Source: Shouchella patagoniensis (GTDB lineage: Bacteria > Bacillota > Bacilli > Bacillales > Bacillaceae_D). From it: a stretch of 64,000 bases of DNA. Both the position numbers and the translations under genes were made by a program. The stretch's first letter is position 1, and each line of letters begins with the position of its first letter. This document shows positions 17,737-24,992 of the stretch, in pieces. A model generated the notes under the pieces. It was given only the letters and a program-made list of their open reading frames with translations. It was not told the origin of the DNA and ran no database searches. The stretch spans positions 62,001 through 126,000 of the forward strand of contig NZ_KV917377.1 in assembly GCF_002019705.1 (NCBI RefSeq). The letters are read 5' to 3'.

Positions 17737-19632
17737 ATGAGTATTTTAGATAAAATCGAACGATATCGCGATGAAGAAGAGCGTTTGAAATGGGAAGGGA
17801 CTTTTGCTGATTACTTGGAGTTGTTAAAAGAGAAGCCTTGGGTAGCACAGACCGCTCACTCGCGTGTGTATAATATGATAAATGACGCCGGAGTGGAGGA
17901 AGCAAATGGCAAAAAAAGTTATTCATTTTTTAAGGAATCGATTTATGGGCTAGAAGAGTCGCTAGAAAAATTGGTGGAAGAGTATTTTCATTCTGCGGCT
18001 AAGCGACTAGACGTGCGTAAGCGAATTCTCTTATTAATGGGGCCTGTTAGTGGTGGAAAATCGACTTTAGTAACAATGTTAAAACGCGGTCTTGAAGATT
18101 ATTCTAGGACTGAAAAAGGCGCTGTTTATGCAATTAAAGGTTGCCCGATGAATGAGGATCCGCTTCATTTAATTCCTCTTCATCTAAGGAAAGATTTCCA
18201 AAAGGAATATGGTATTCGAATTGAAGGGAACTTATCTCCTTTAAATATGATGCGACTTGAGCAAGAATACGGTGGACGGATTGAAGATGTTCAAGTAGAA
18301 AGAATCTTTTTTTCTGAAGATAAGCGAACTGGGATAGGTACTTTTTCACCTTCTGATCCCAAGTCACAGGATATTGCTGATCTTACGGGCAGTATCGACT
18401 TTTCAACGATTGCTGAATTTGGCTCTGAATCGGATCCACGAGCATACCGATTTGATGGCGAATTGAATAAAGCGAACCGAGGTATGATGGAATTTCAAGA
18501 AATGCTAAAGTGTGACGAAAAATTTCTTTGGCATTTACTGTCGTTGACGCAAGAAGGTAATTTTAAAGCCGGTCGATTTGCACTTATTTCAGCGGATGAG
18601 CTTATTCTTGCTCATACGAATGAGTCAGAATACAAATCGTTTATTTCGAATAAAAAAAATGAAGCGCTCCATTCTCGAATAATTGTTATGAAAGTACCTT
18701 ATAATTTAAAAGTCTCTGAAGAAGAACGCATTTATAAGAAAATGATTTCTGAAAGTGATTTAGCTAATGTGCACATCGCTCCCCACGCTTTAAAAGTGGC
18801 TGCTATATTTACGATTTTAACCCGGTTGAAAGAAACGCATAAAGCGGGTATTGATTTAGTGAAGAAGATGAAACTTTATGATGGCGAGTCAGTTGAAGGG
18901 TTTAATAGCCAGGATTTAAAAGAACTTCAATCAGAGTTTAGTGATGAAGGCATGAGTGGAATTGATCCTCGTTATGTAATAAACCGAATTTCATCAGCAA
19001 TAATCCGGAAACAATTAACATCTATTTCAGCGCTTGATGTTTTAAGGTCTATCAAAGAGGGGCTCGATCAACATGCCTCCATTTCTAAAGAGGATAAAGA
19101 GCGATATACAGATTACATCACTGTAGCACGAAAAGAGTATGATTTGATTGCAAAAGAAGAGGTTCAAAAAGCATTTGTCTACTCTTACGAAGAATCGGCT
19201 AAAACATTGATGGATAATTATTTGGACAATGTTGAGGCATTTTGCAATAAAAACAAACTCCGTGATCCTCTTACAGGAGATGAGATGTCTCCGGATGAAA
19301 AGTTAATGCGGTCAATAGAGGAACAAATAGGGATATCTGAAAATGCAAAAAAAGCTTTCCGAGAAGAAATTTTAATTCGTATCTCTGCATATGCACGAAA
19401 AGGCAAAAAGTTCGAGTATAATTCCCATGAAAGATTACGTGAAGCGATTCAAAAGAAGCTATTTGCTGATTTGAAAGATATTGTAAAAATAACAACGTCT
19501 GTGAAAACGCCGGATGAATCACAATTGAAAAAAATGAACGATGTAATTGCACGCTTAATTGACGAGCATGGCTATAATTCAGTTTCAGCGAATGAATTGC
19601 TCCGTTATGTTGGTTCTTTATTAAATAGATAA
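17737..19632 (+). CDS. prkA: PrkA AAA+ ATPase / serine protein kinase
   Basis: This 631-residue protein has the same length as B. subtilis PrkA. The N-terminal AAA+ core has Walker A GPVSGGKST at residues 102-110, and the C-terminal half carries the kinase-like region of the family. PrkA acts in the mother cell during sporulation in Bacillus, and its enterobacterial homologue YeaG works with YeaH and YcgB. Here YhbH (YeaH homologue) is 1.4 kb downstream and SpoVR (YcgB homologue) 26 kb away. Whether the main activity is protein phosphorylation or AAA+ protease-like action is debated in the literature. GGAGGTAACG precedes the ATG. Confidence 0.96.
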   Translation: MSILDKIERYRDEEERLKWEGTFADYLELLKEKPWVAQTAHSRVYNMINDAGVEEANGKKSYSFFKESIYGLEESLEKLVEEYFHSAAKRLDVRKRILLLMGPVSGGKSTLVTMLKRGLEDYSRTEKGAVYAIKGCPMNEDPLHLIPLHLRKDFQKEYGIRIEGNLSPLNMMRLEQEYGGRIEDVQVERIFFSEDKRTGIGTFSPSDPKSQDIADLTGSIDFSTIAEFGSESDPRAYRFDGELNKANRGMMEFQEMLKCDEKFLWHLLSLTQEGNFKAGRFALISADELILAHTNESEYKSFISNKKNEALHSRIIVMKVPYNLKVSEEERIYKKMISESDLANVHIAPHALKVAAIFTILTRLKETHKAGIDLVKKMKLYDGESVEGFNSQDLKELQSEFSDEGMSGIDPRYVINRISSAIIRKQLTSISALDVLRSIKEGLDQHASISKEDKERYTDYITVARKEYDLIAKEEVQKAFVYSYEESAKTLMDNYLDNVEAFCNKNKLRDPLTGDEMSPDEKLMRSIEEQIGISENAKKAFREEILIRISAYARKGKKFEYNSHERLREAIQKKLFADLKDIVKITTSVKTPDESQLKKMNDVIARLIDEHGYNSVSANELLRYVGSLLNR

Positions 19633-21026: not shown

Positions 21027-22196
21027 ATGGAAAAAGACAGCCGCCATCAATATGTCGTGTCGCAGGAGAATTGGTCCCTCCACAGAAAAGGATTCCAAGA
21101 CCAACGCAGGCATCAAGAAAAAGTCCAAGAAGCAATTAAAAAGAATTTACCTGACTTAGTAAGTGAAGAAAACATCGTGATGTCTAATGGGAAAGACGTT
21201 ATACGAATACCGATTCGGTCTCTTGACGAATATAAAATTCGTTATAATTATGATAAAAACAAACATGTTGGGCAAGGAAAAGGAGACAGTAAAGTTGGTG
21301 ATGTTGTTGCGCGTGACCCTAACGGACAACAACAAGCGGGTCCTGGAAAGGGAGAAGGAGCTGGCGACCAAGCGGGTGAAGATTATAATGAAGCAGAAGT
21401 TTCTATTTTAGAGCTAGAAGAAATGTTGTTTGCAGAATTGGAATTGCCTAATTTACAAAAGAAAGAAGAACAGGAATTAATCATTGAAAATATTGAATTT
21501 AATGACATTAGAAAAAAAGGGTTAATGGGTAATGTAGACAAAAGACGTACGATCCTAGCAGCAATTAAGAGGAATGCGTTAGCAGGCAAAACAGGCATTA
21601 TGCCTATATACAACGATGATCTTCGTTTTAAAACATGGAACGAATCGATCCGCCCAGAATCTAAGGCGGTTGTTATTGCTATGATGGATACAAGTGGGTC
21701 GATGGGCAGGTTTGAAAAATACATGGCTCGCAGTTTCTTCTTTTGGATGACAAGGTTCCTACGAACGAAGTATGAGACTGTCGAAATTGAATTTATTGCC
21801 CATCATACTGAAGCAAAAGTGGTTAATGAAGAAGACTTCTTCTCTAAAGGAGAAAGTGGTGGTACAATTTGTTCTTCTGCATACCGAAAAGCTTTAGAAT
21901 TAATTGATGATAAATATAGTCCAGAAGCATATAACATTTATCCATTTCATTTCTCTGATGGAGACAATTTAACGTCCGACAACGCTAGGTGTATTAAACT
22001 GGTTAAACAATTGATGGATCGATCGAATTTGTTTGGATACGGGGAGGTCAATCAATATTCTCGTCATTCTACATTAATGGGTGCATACAAAAACATCGCT
22101 GATCCACGTTTTATGCATTATATTTTGAAAGAAAAAGGTGACGTTTATCACGCAATGAAGTACTTTTTTCAGAAGAACGTGGAAGCAGCGATATAA
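21027..22196 (+). CDS. yhbH: Sporulation protein YhbH (UPF0229/DUF444, VWA-type)
   Basis: This 389-residue protein is the Bacillus counterpart of enterobacterial YeaH and a partner of PrkA. Its C-terminal half is von Willebrand factor A-like, with the metal-ion site DTSGS at residues 221-225. A Gly/Gln-rich linker ([14 protein letters not shown], about 101-114) precedes it. It is mother-cell expressed in B. subtilis. Here a sigma-E-like -10 (CAGACAAT, 20977-20984, one mismatch) lies upstream but without a clear -35. CAGGAGGGC precedes the ATG. A signal peptidase and a VOC gene separate it from prkA. Confidence 0.95.
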
Positions 22197-22230: not shown

Positions 22231-23115
22231 TTAACGTTTTGATTCGGTCTTTTGCTCAAAATCAGGTACTGTGGTTGGATCTAACGGATGATCGTGTTGT
22301 GTTACAAAGAATGTGCCACCTGATACGTCTTTCACGTTATGAACAACAACGAATGCATGAGGATCAACTCCCTGGATTAATTGTTTCAAAGAAAAGAGTC
22401 GGTGTGAACGAACAACAATGTAAATAACTTCACGTTGTTCACGTGTATAGCCACCATAGCCATCAAAAATAGTAGCACTTGAGGTCATTTGTTCTAGTAC
22501 CAGTTTAGAAATCTCCTGTCCTTTGGGAGAGATAATTGTAACTGCTTTTTTTGCGTCAAATCCTTCTAGAACATAATCGGTTACTTTCTTTCCAATATAG
22601 AGTGCAATGATCGTGTACATTGTATTAATTGGACCAATAATAAATACGCCAAAAACAACGATAATTGAATCAAGAATAAAGTTGGTACCAGTAAGTTCCC
22701 ATCCAAATCGATGATTTAACATTCTAGCAATGATAGATGTCCCACCGGTAGAGCTACCAGCTCTAAATATGAAACCAAAGCCTACACCAGTAAGTAAGCC
22801 AGCGAAAATAGCTGCGAGTAGAGTGTCTTCAATTGTTTGCCCATAACCTTCAGTTAAATAGATAAAAAATGAAAGTAAAGGCACATTAATGATTGACTTA
22901 TACACCATATGACGAGGCAGCAATTTAAACCCAATCGCAAGCAAAAGCGCATTAAAGATAAAAGTGACCAATGCAGGAGATAAACCGATAGAAAAATAGA
23001 GCAATAAGGACAAGCCGACGATACCACCTTCTGCAAGGTTATTCGGCATTGCAAAAAGTGTAATAGATAAACTAAACAAAAGTGTACCAATGGTTATGTA
23101 AATATAATCTTTCAT
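22231..23115 (-). CDS. YitT-family membrane protein (DUF161 + DUF2179)
   Basis: This 294-residue protein has five to six membrane segments with the family's AEGGIVGLSLLL and RAGSSTGGTSIIAR motifs in the YitT domain, followed by a cytosolic C-terminal DUF2179 domain (GKKVTDYVLEGFDAKKAVTIIS to GTFFVTQHD). Function of the family is unknown. ATG at 23115 is preferred over one nine bases earlier because AAAGG directly abuts the earlier codon and is well spaced from the later one. Confidence 0.88.
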   Translation of the reverse strand: MKDYIYITIGTLLFSLSITLFAMPNNLAEGGIVGLSLLLYFSIGLSPALVTFIFNALLLAIGFKLLPRHMVYKSIINVPLLSFFIYLTEGYGQTIEDTLLAAIFAGLLTGVGFGFIFRAGSSTGGTSIIARMLNHRFGWELTGTNFILDSIIVVFGVFIIGPINTMYTIIALYIGKKVTDYVLEGFDAKKAVTIISPKGQEISKLVLEQMTSSATIFDGYGGYTREQREVIYIVVRSHRLFSLKQLIQGVDPHAFVVVHNVKDVSGGTFFVTQHDHPLDPTTVPDFEQKTESKR

Positions 23116-23140
23116 AGGACACATCCTTTCTTTCTAAGAA

Positions 23141-23172
23141 AAGAAGTAGCTTGCATATGCAAGCTACTTCTT
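23141..23172 (-). terminator. Terminator of the beta-helix gene: 32-base perfect palindrome
   Basis: Two 16-base arms, the left starting AAGAAGTAGC, are exact reverse complements with no loop bases to spare. On the minus strand a T-rich stretch follows. The stop codon of the beta-helix gene is inside the right arm. Confidence 0.8.
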
Positions 23173-24939
23173 CCCAAGCCGTTGCTCAAGCTCTTCAACT
23201 AAGCCAACAATTTCAGCTGTACGTGCCTCGCGATCGGCGTTCTCTTGCGCTTTCACTAATGCCTCTTGTGCTTCAGCTTGTGATAATTGTGTCTCCATTT
23301 CTGCTGATTGACTCAGGGCCTCGGCATATTGTCTTAAAGCATCAGCCTCTTGACCAATTATTTCGGTATGACATTCGCCACCAATTGCAATATTGTGTTC
23401 ATGACCATTAAAAGTACAGTTCTCAATAAAGCCCCCTGCATGTAACAGGCGAATCGCGCACGTTCCGCCATTCTCAATAATCGATTCGCGAATCGTTGGA
23501 GTACTGTTATGGATGTCAATTTGCGCTTCAAAATGGCCACTAAATTGACAATGCTCAACTAAGCCACTGGAATGGTTATCAAAGCGAAGGCCACTTTCAT
23601 AACTTTCATAAATACGGCTTTCTTTCATTATAATAGACGCTTCATCAGATAAGTAAATTTGAGGGTATAAATCATTATGATGATAAAAAGAACTGTTATA
23701 AACAGAGACATGACTTTTATCTTGAATAAATAAACCGCTCTGTGCGCCATCAAAAACTTGTACATCATTCAAATCGGCTTCGCTGCCATCAGCAATGACA
23801 AGCTGGTTAAATGCGTTTTCGTAAAAACGGCAATGTGAGATATCGGCACTGGCTTGTTCTGTTAGCCATACACCATAGTGTTTACCATAAAAAACAGCAC
23901 TATGCTTCATACTTAAGCGCGCTTTTTCACTTGTTGCAACTTGTGGCATTTCATGACCAAAAAGATCACTTGATTCAATATGACCATAAGCGTTATTTCC
24001 TAAAACAATGCCTGATTTGCCTCCAAACTTAACCGTGCTTTTATATAAGTATACAGAAGCATTAGTAACAGATATGTGGTCATCTGAATGCGATGAAATA
24101 ATTGTGTTTTCAATTTGAGCATTGCCGTTATTAACTATAGACAAGGCTCGTTTACCGGTTTCGATTAAGCTGTTTTGTACAATCGCTTGACCACCGTCAA
24201 CAAAAACTTGTTCAGGTTGGTTATTTGTTAACGTACAAGTGCGGAAAGTGAGTTTGGCATTCTCTAAAATCGAAGCTGCTCCAGAGTCACTTTCATAGAC
24301 CAAACAATCGTTTAAAACTGTTTCACTATTTGCTTTAGCTTTAATTTGCATATGTTCAGAATGATGTCCATAGAGCTGACAATTTTCCAGTAGGTTTCGA
24401 CTGTTTTGATCAAAGTAACATGCTGCACTTTTTCCTTGATAAATGTGAGCATGCTTCATAATTAATCTACCGATTCCTCCAACATATATTTGACTTCCGA
24501 GCTGACCATAGATAGCGCAATATTCAGCTCTGGCACGACCTAGAATAAAAAGGCCAATTCCACTGTGCCGCACAGTCACATCTGTTAAGTTTAGATGACC
24601 ATTTTCATAAACGTGTATGGCATGCTTTTTAATTCGAGTAAATTGGCAGTGGGTTACTTGTGCAAACCCTTCCTCAACAGCAAGCCCTTTGGAAGACTCT
24701 GTAAAGGAAATGCTTTTTATAGTGACCGAGGCTCCATCAATGACCGAAATAGATCCATTGAGAACAACATTTTCAGGTTCATCTAGTCCAACGAGTTGAA
24801 TCGATTTTGATATGATAACTGACTCTCTATACGTGCCAGGATCAATTTGAATTAAATCACCATCTCTTGCATCAAGTATTGCTTGTTCAATTGTTTTATA
24901 TTTAGACAACAATTTACGGGAAACATGAATTTTCCTCAC
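23164..24939 (-). CDS. Large cytosolic right-handed parallel beta-helix protein with C-terminal coiled coil
   Basis: This 591-residue protein is built of about 20 imperfect turns of 22-24 residues typical of parallel beta-helices (for example GASVTIKSISFTES, NAKLTFRTCTLTNN, NAYGHIESSDLFGH). It opens with a carbohydrate-binding/sugar-hydrolysis-type start: YKTIEQAILDARDGDLIQID, then PGTYRESVIIS. After about residue 525 the helix ends and a Glu/Ala/Gln-rich coiled coil follows to the end. There is no signal peptide or anchor, so the protein is probably cytosolic. The GTG at 24939 follows GAGGTGAT; the longer upstream frame overlaps the promoter. A sigma-A promoter precedes it. No enzyme active site was identified. 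Confidence 0.85.
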   Translation of the reverse strand: MRKIHVSRKLLSKYKTIEQAILDARDGDLIQIDPGTYRESVIISKSIQLVGLDEPENVVLNGSISVIDGASVTIKSISFTESSKGLAVEEGFAQVTHCQFTRIKKHAIHVYENGHLNLTDVTVRHSGIGLFILGRARAEYCAIYGQLGSQIYVGGIGRLIMKHAHIYQGKSAACYFDQNSRNLLENCQLYGHHSEHMQIKAKANSETVLNDCLVYESDSGAASILENAKLTFRTCTLTNNQPEQVFVDGGQAIVQNSLIETGKRALSIVNNGNAQIENTIISSHSDDHISVTNASVYLYKSTVKFGGKSGIVLGNNAYGHIESSDLFGHEMPQVATSEKARLSMKHSAVFYGKHYGVWLTEQASADISHCRFYENAFNQLVIADGSEADLNDVQVFDGAQSGLFIQDKSHVSVYNSSFYHHNDLYPQIYLSDEASIIMKESRIYESYESGLRFDNHSSGLVEHCQFSGHFEAQIDIHNSTPTIRESIIENGGTCAIRLLHAGGFIENCTFNGHEHNIAIGGECHTEIIGQEADALRQYAEALSQSAEMETQLSQAEAQEALVKAQENADREARTAEIVGLVEELEQRLGKK

Positions 24940-24962
24940 GTGTATCACCTCAATCTTAGCTA

Positions 24963-24992
24963 AGTATACCGCCTTTTTTATGAGCTGTCCAA
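24963..24992 (-). promoter_or_regulatory. Sigma-A promoter of the beta-helix gene
   Basis: On the minus strand TTGGAC (24992-24987) and TATACT (24968-24963) have an 18-base spacer. Confidence 0.6.

Follow-up and report, generated by a model that had tools for sequence, protein, structure and literature searches.

A probable AAA-less relative of EccA/SpoVK-clade beta-helices encoded in Shouchella patagoniensis

Introduction

The window, that is, the whole stretch of 64,000 nucleotides of Shouchella patagoniensis DNA analysed here, encodes a 591-aa protein that the initial annotation described as a large cytosolic beta-helix with a charged coiled-coil tail and no known partner. What such a protein does inside the cell was the question of this study. 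A scaffold, a bactofilin-like filament former and a delivered effector had been considered, and the gene had been regarded as the best candidate in the window for something undescribed. The best explanation from our analysis, which is put forward tentatively, is that the protein may be a cytosolic, AAA-less member of the EccA/SpoVK-clade beta-helix family, working in trans as a client adaptor.

In the excerpts of PMC10659427 considered here, SpoVK, CbbX and EccA form one AAA+ clade of dedicated chaperones, and a beta-helix is listed among the EccA N-terminal domains that 'might recruit the substrate'; the role of the beta-helix in EccA-like chaperones is only a suggestion there. An excerpt of PMC11237479 presents Toastrack as another beta-helix domain, and the excerpt of PMC11217815 contains no mention of 'beta-helix'. 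Among the matches listed from open-licence PMC papers, no stand-alone form was found, and open-licence PMC papers gave no literature on a beta-helix together with Shouchella. The term 'undescribed' appears to suit the AAA-less stand-alone form and not this kind of beta-helix, whose kin in the EccA/SpoVK clade are named in the excerpted part of PMC10659427. Judged from the sequence, what is new here is an AAA-less form of a known chaperone-associated beta-helix.

Results and Discussion

Gene structure and expression signals

The reading frame of the 591-aa protein was found where the gene had been placed (23164..24939, minus strand), with a GTG start at 24939 and a TAG stop at 23164. It is preceded by a ribosome binding site, GAGGTGA, read from the sequence at 24945..24951 (minus strand), and by a sigma-A-type promoter-like element, TGGACA-17-TATACT, at 24963..24991 (minus strand). 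The upstream regions were compared in 16 sequences, S. patagoniensis included and the broken copy of genome G008 left out. GAGGTG or GGGGTG preceded the start in these sequences, and TGGACA-17/18-TATA(A/C)T stood at the same place in all 16. The consensus promoter scan of the gene region found 8 elements against 6.8 expected, which was not above chance. The promoter that had been assigned to the gene is therefore supported by its conservation and not by the consensus scan.

At the other end of the gene, a hairpin of 17 pairs lies over the stop codon and is followed by a U-rich stretch (23138..23175, minus strand; MFE −26.3, z −6.0). This probable terminator, which the pattern scan for terminators missed, suggests that the gene is probably transcribed alone. 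The gene is present as a single copy in the 4.65 Mb genome (G000). Compared with its closest relative, in G008, the first 404 codons gave a dN of 0.034 and a dS of 0.418 (dN/dS about 0.08), which points to purifying selection. At 92-93% identity, the G008 orthologue itself (contig C201, L007/L013) is split over two frames; its assembly is fragmented.

In S. patagoniensis, 40 in-frame codons, some of them hydrophobic, lie upstream of the GTG. The protein is nevertheless predicted to have no signal peptide, as had been annotated, because these codons run into the promoter and lack conservation, and because 9 of the 16 sequences have a stop at 2-8 codons before the aligned start. Furthermore, when the first 60 residues were scanned in windows of 15, the highest Kyte-Doolittle mean was 0.45-1.27 in the family and at least 1.8 for 24 of 28 beta-helix controls.

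Predicted structure

The structure prediction that the initial annotation had proposed was carried out with AlphaFold2 from five input sequences, and gave a mean pLDDT of 88 and a pTM of 0.80. Residues 1-528 (23356..24939, minus strand) were modelled as a right-handed parallel beta-helix, with a cap helix at residues 17-23 at its N-terminal end. On the model, we counted about 22 coils, each of about 23 residues, where the initial annotation had given about 20 turns. Within the beta-helix, eight double-coil repeats of about 46 residues occupy residues 150-515 (23395..24492, minus strand; borders set by us). Seven of the eight are headed by glutamine (Q150, Q198, Q244, Q333, Q379, Q427 and Q473), and these seven residues are invariant across 14 aligned sequences. 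The C-terminal tail, residues 530-587 (23179..23352, minus strand), was modelled as a helix of low confidence, with ten-residue mean pLDDT values of 35-67 from residue 531 on.

The protein matched Pfam Beta_helix (PF13229) at 4e-46 and Pfam NosD (PF05048) at 34.9 bits (cut-off 23.6), while the NCBIfam NosD model gave 25 bits against a cut-off of 300. The Pfam NosD match does not appear to discriminate secreted from AAA-linked beta-helices, since the AAA-linked relatives that were scanned also match NosD. Apart from Beta_helix and NosD, no Pfam or NCBIfam family was matched over its cut-off, and no enzyme family was among them. The best fold match was 8egr_A (VIA-align Z of 31.6 over 469 residues), and the other beta-helix matches among the best 50 had Z values of 24.3-31.0. 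The sequence identity in the PDB fold matches was 7-17% (8-17% among the best 50). The fold search would indicate a shared common fold only, and families missing from its lists carry no weight. No PDB chain was matched by sequence at E up to 0.1. In addition, no family of PADLOC-DB (anti-phage defence) or PHROGs was matched at E up to 1e-3, and no match was obtained among 50,697 phage records at E 1e-5.

Distribution

The protein was found in 12 of 13 Shouchella genomes, the exception being the 2.6 Mb genome G004, and in all five genomes of the sister genus, with 31-32% identity over the full length. The orthologues align end to end. Of the remaining 23 family genomes, only G033 gave matches, and these were partial, which makes 18 of 41 in all. 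The search of genome contigs gave five loci, all from Shouchella or Bacillus sp. JCM 19041; the protein identity was 67-70% for the Shouchella species and 94% for JCM 19041.

In the order-wide protein search, 25 of 299 genomes gave matches, orthologues included, and those outside the family were partial, short or weak. The phylum-wide profile search at E 1e-8 retrieved 3 of 398 genomes, namely that of S. patagoniensis and two with short N-terminal matches. With a mixed profile, 14 of 397 genomes of the order were matched at E 1e-12: seven orthologues, four distant relatives (G154, G207, G725 and G783) and three weak N-terminal matches (G158, also in the control set, G257 and G320); the mixed profile contains rows of G154, G207 and G033, whose own matches arise by construction. 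Among plasmids, the 591-aa protein matched seven records, all from Streptomyces, and the G207 beta-helix matched 35 (33 Streptomyces, one Deinococcus and one Calditerrivibrio). Eight plasmid-record loci were examined in all.

Relationship to AAA+-linked beta-helices

Two profiles were used, a family profile of 14 orthologue rows and a second one of the 46-residue double-coil repeat. The controls were taken from the 29 loci L110-L138, the top of 30 matches listed for PF13229; L129 is the G154 relative and was left out, leaving 28. The family profile gave 91-246 bits for six relatives and at most 43 bits for all 28 controls, and the repeat profile gave 82-233 bits for the same six and at most 16 for the controls; these relatives had been found with the 591-aa protein or with profiles containing it, and their scores are partly due to selection. 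With the repeat profile, four G725 and G783 proteins reached 250-362 bits, and another five Streptomyces proteins, every one of them AAA-bearing, reached 62-98 bits. A Deinococcus protein annotated as a kinase reached 33 bits, and the kinship is therefore not confined to AAA proteins.

The 46-residue period, as seen by single-repeat autocorrelation, also occurs in control L112, so that the period alone is no proof of kinship. Despite sharing the 23/46 spacing, L112 reached 24 bits with the family profile and stayed under the threshold of the repeat profile; thus, spacing alone does not explain the separation by the profiles. In a tree of 25 rows, based on the N-terminal 150 residues only and weak in its internal order, the family and the AAA-linked set were split from five controls with a support of 94/91. 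The 591-aa family (support 80/81; neither value starred) was sister to the AAA-linked clade and not nested in it, which leaves the loss of an AAA domain unproven. The 591-aa protein has an N-terminal beta-helix of the 46-residue double-coil type, and both profiles separate the AAA-linked proteins and their kin from the 28 controls; the comparison places it with the beta-helices that form the N-terminal part of EccA/SpoVK-clade AAA+ proteins.

AAA domains were present in the same frame in four of the six relatives (G207, G033 C39 and Streptomyces L098 and L099). In G207, a protein of 1348 aa has an N-terminal beta-helix followed by two SpoVK/EccA AAA+ domains, which scored 478 bits for SpoVK, over cut-off, and 440 for EccA, under the cut-off of 466.65. 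In the C39 fragment of G033 (582 aa), AAA domains stand behind the beta-helix, and in a second fragment, on C72 and cut by the contig end, no AAA domain was seen. All seven Streptomyces proteins scanned carry AAA behind the beta-helix, with two stretches over cut-off in three proteins and one in four; those of L098 scored 522 bits for SpoVK and 473 for EccA, both over cut-off. All three annotated Streptomyces loci examined adjoin type VII secretion genes, with EccC in each of them and EccD, EccB or WXG100 proteins. The annotated relatives were named only 'right-handed parallel beta-helix repeat-containing protein'.

The remaining relative, in G154, is a stand-alone beta-helix of 445 aa. Its neighbours are an Hsp70-like gene and a gene for a tandem-AAA protein, the latter also with weak matches to TPR. 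These three genes stand in a row (L057 6550-14760) and are possibly a mobile chaperone-like cassette; the gene upstream of it presumably encodes a VirD4/TraG-type ATPase.

In the 591-aa protein, neither a Pfam AAA domain (E up to 1) nor a P-loop pattern was found. In G725 and G783, which belong to the same order, an 896-aa protein combines the beta-helix with one AAA domain. In G725, this domain has a damaged Walker A (GNPGTGKN) and GS in place of GY at sensor 1, and in G783, it does not match the Walker A pattern. Each of the two genomes also encodes elsewhere, in G725 on another contig, a 607-aa beta-helix in which no AAA domain was seen. The beta-helix therefore persists where the ATPase decays. 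The 896-aa proteins (G725 at L169 7726-10416, G783 at L171) have been kept in the two related genomes despite their lost ATPase residues. Relatives occur with two AAA domains, with one, with a degenerate one or with none; the Shouchella proteins would add a further case without AAA, distinguished by its own tail.

C-terminal motif

The tail had been described as a charged coiled coil. Its charge was confirmed (34% D/E/K/R), whereas its conservation looks more like that of a specific binding motif than of a generic coiled coil. Residues 568-589 (23173..23238, minus strand; consensus AEREARTAEIVGLVEELEERLG) are 79% identical between the two genera, compared with a mean of 32% for the whole protein, and none of 2000 column shuffles reached this identity in any 22-residue window. 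Thirteen residues are invariant among the 14 aligned sequences: A568, T574, E576, I577, V578, G579, L580, V581, E582, L584, E585, L588 and G589. The tail would suit a specific docking surface better than plain self-association, because polar and glycine positions are constrained and not only a hydrophobic stripe.

In the 41 genomes of the family, the motif gave 17 matches, all of them orthologues of the beta-helix protein, and no other convincing match (next best E 0.08). It was also absent from the frames of the distant beta-helix relatives. The motif is lineage-specific and under extreme constraint.

Genomic context and co-occurrence

The gene lies in the same block as prkA and yhbH. PrkA (AAA_PrkA; 17737..19632, plus strand), found in this block in both genera, is an AAA protein of another family than SpoVK/EccA. 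YhbH (DUF444; 21027..22196, plus strand) is encoded at most 7 kb from the beta-helix gene in all 11 contexts, that is, the window and loci L050-L054 and L059-L063. The search for conserved neighbours, also proposed initially, thus gave yhbH, in arrangements that change: orientations and intervening genes differ between the genera, and in all five sister-genus contexts, the beta-helix gene stands directly before yhbH on the same strand. At the related locus L062, yhbH is 6.6 kb away, and no yhbH was seen within the 6 kb flanks of the S. clausii locus L014. In G015 (L051 7504-8728), yhbH beside the beta-helix gene is split into two frames, by sequencing error or as a pseudogene. A YitT-family membrane protein is encoded downstream on the same strand (22231..23124, minus strand) and had no match in the five sister-genus contexts.

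No SpoVK/EccA-type AAA gene adjoins the beta-helix gene in the contexts examined, with frames as recognised, and no type VII secretion genes stand beside it in the window or the orthologue contexts, small WXG100 proteins being outside the profile search. The claim of no known partner stood to this extent: no obvious partner gene was found in the contexts examined. SpoVK was over cut-off in 38 of the 41 family genomes, and tandem AAA proteins were present in all 17 carriers of the gene and in 21 of the 24 genomes without it, by our row reading; they were missing only from G004, G037 and G038, all without the beta-helix and too few to count. Co-occurrence therefore picks no partner. EssC was over cut-off in 12 of the 17 carriers and in 9 of the 24 genomes without the gene, and as candidate partners in the 41 genomes, SpoVK and EssC were both rejected for lack of discrimination.

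S. patagoniensis encodes a tandem SpoVK-type AAA+ protein of 732 aa with an uncharacterised N-terminal region (G000:C1:725584-727152; L074 7555-9753). In most family genomes, the corresponding frame has roughly 740-800 aa. The SpoVK of S. patagoniensis is encoded at G000:C1:757034-757813. Some family genomes have triple SpoVK-type AAA+ proteins of 1162-1191 aa, at L078 6620-10195, L079 6354-9869 and L080 5186-8674, with a pair of small proteins behind each that are similar in size from locus to locus, and, by frame length, also in G019 and G021.

Proposed function and alternative explanations

The 591-aa protein would be the AAA-less kin of beta-helices that stand N-terminal to, or are encoded beside, EccA/SpoVK-clade AAA+ domains. 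A client protein dedicated to it may be bound by the long face of its beta-helix, and the amphipathic helix at the C-terminus may dock the beta-helix-client complex onto a partner, which might be a SpoVK-clade AAA+ ATPase of the same cell or something else. The protein would thereby be neither enzyme nor filament nor secreted effector, but a client adaptor in trans. Client binding and docking seem the most likely role because the excerpts of PMC10659427 suggest that such N-terminal domains may recruit the substrate. That it is specifically an EccA/SpoVK client-recruiting module which has become free-standing, and which docks by its invariant C-terminal helix onto an ATPase or machine encoded elsewhere, is rather doubtful.

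Among the alternatives, a sporulation- or stress-linked scaffold of the adjoining PrkA-YhbH block, with a function unrelated to AAA+ chaperones, is unlikely. In B. subtilis, both PrkA and YhbH are associated with sporulation, and the distance of at most 7 kb to yhbH in 11 of 11 contexts from two genera speaks for such a link, as does the position directly before yhbH in the five sister-genus contexts. However, orientation and intervening genes vary between the genera, and the gene has its own promoter-like element, which resembles sigma-A and not a sporulation sigma, and a probable terminator. Moreover, yhbH was present in all eight tested genomes without the beta-helix gene; the link may therefore be positional only. 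Somewhat less probable is a self-associating scaffold or bactofilin-like filament former whose tail oligomerises as a coiled coil. The tail is charged and helical, and bactofilins are cytosolic beta-helices that polymerise, according to the excerpt of PMC12448750, but no bactofilin was matched in Pfam at E up to 1, the model has a helix at each end, and the invariant T574, E576, E582, E585, G579 and G589 would suit a docking motif better. Of the initial scaffold reading, the scaffold- or adaptor-like part was retained and the bactofilin-like filament was not.

It is very improbable that the protein is an intracellular carbohydrate-active or other enzyme with the beta-helix groove as its site. 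Many of the PDB fold neighbours are polysaccharide lyases, epimerases or hydrolases, and no other part of the beta-helix is conserved as well as the stretch around residues 347-368, which reaches 0.60 between the genera over its 22 residues, with HYG-WLTE at 354-361. This is countered by the missing PDB sequence match, the low identity of the fold matches, the missing enzyme family over Pfam or NCBIfam cut-off and the predicted lack of a signal peptide. A role as type VII secretion accessory or substrate, as the Streptomyces relatives in such clusters would suggest, seems the most improbable. The three Streptomyces loci and an EssC over curated cut-off in S. patagoniensis favour it, but this EssC (G000:C1:1871409) lies 1.8 Mb from the beta-helix gene, five of the 17 carriers (G007, G009, G013, G015 and G017) are without EssC over cut-off, and nine of the 24 non-carriers have it. 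The suggestion of a delivered effector is not supported either, given the distance of this EssC and the five carriers without one over cut-off.

If the module is indeed free-standing, the protein would represent a split, adaptor-style form of a chaperone so far described as a fusion of beta-helix and ATPase, and an EccA/SpoVK-type beta-helix would be used outside type VII secretion. A stand-alone, single-copy form in a cultivable genus makes the client and docking question directly testable. Without a fused ATPase, the client of the face and the dock of the tail become separable questions, and the 22-residue tail motif is a ready bait.

Comparison with known systems

The NosD-like controls (28 loci) have the fold and PF13229 in common with the 591-aa protein, but 24 of them have a hydrophobic N-terminal stretch, and their scores do not exceed 43 bits (family) and 16 bits (repeat). 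Bactofilins share the cytosolic right-handed beta-helix; in the excerpt of PMC12448750, their core has about 110 residues and polymerises end to end, compared with about 528 residues here.

The EccA-like AAA+ protein of Streptomyces type VII secretion (WP_153182292.1, L098) resembles the 591-aa protein in its N-terminal beta-helix with the 46-residue double-coil period (82 bits repeat profile, 141 bits family profile). It has two C-terminal SpoVK/EccA AAA+ domains and type VII secretion neighbours, and the 591-aa protein is without both. The Bacillota proteins that combine beta-helix and AAA+ (G207, G033 C39 and the 896-aa proteins of G725 and G783) have the same repeat (127-362 bits), and their N-terminal start TVSxK in G207 and G725 (TVSQKIFSKYKTI in G725) resembles that of the 591-aa protein, from which they differ by their AAA+ domains and by having no tail motif.

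The 607-aa beta-helices of G725 and G783 are AAA-less and have the same repeat (250-254 bits), but they have other neighbours and no tail motif. The G154 beta-helix of 445 aa adjoins ATPase genes and has another C-terminal end, without the tail motif, unlike the 591-aa protein; like it, the G154 protein is AAA-less, has no hydrophobic N-terminal stretch by eye and is built from the same repeat (173 bits).
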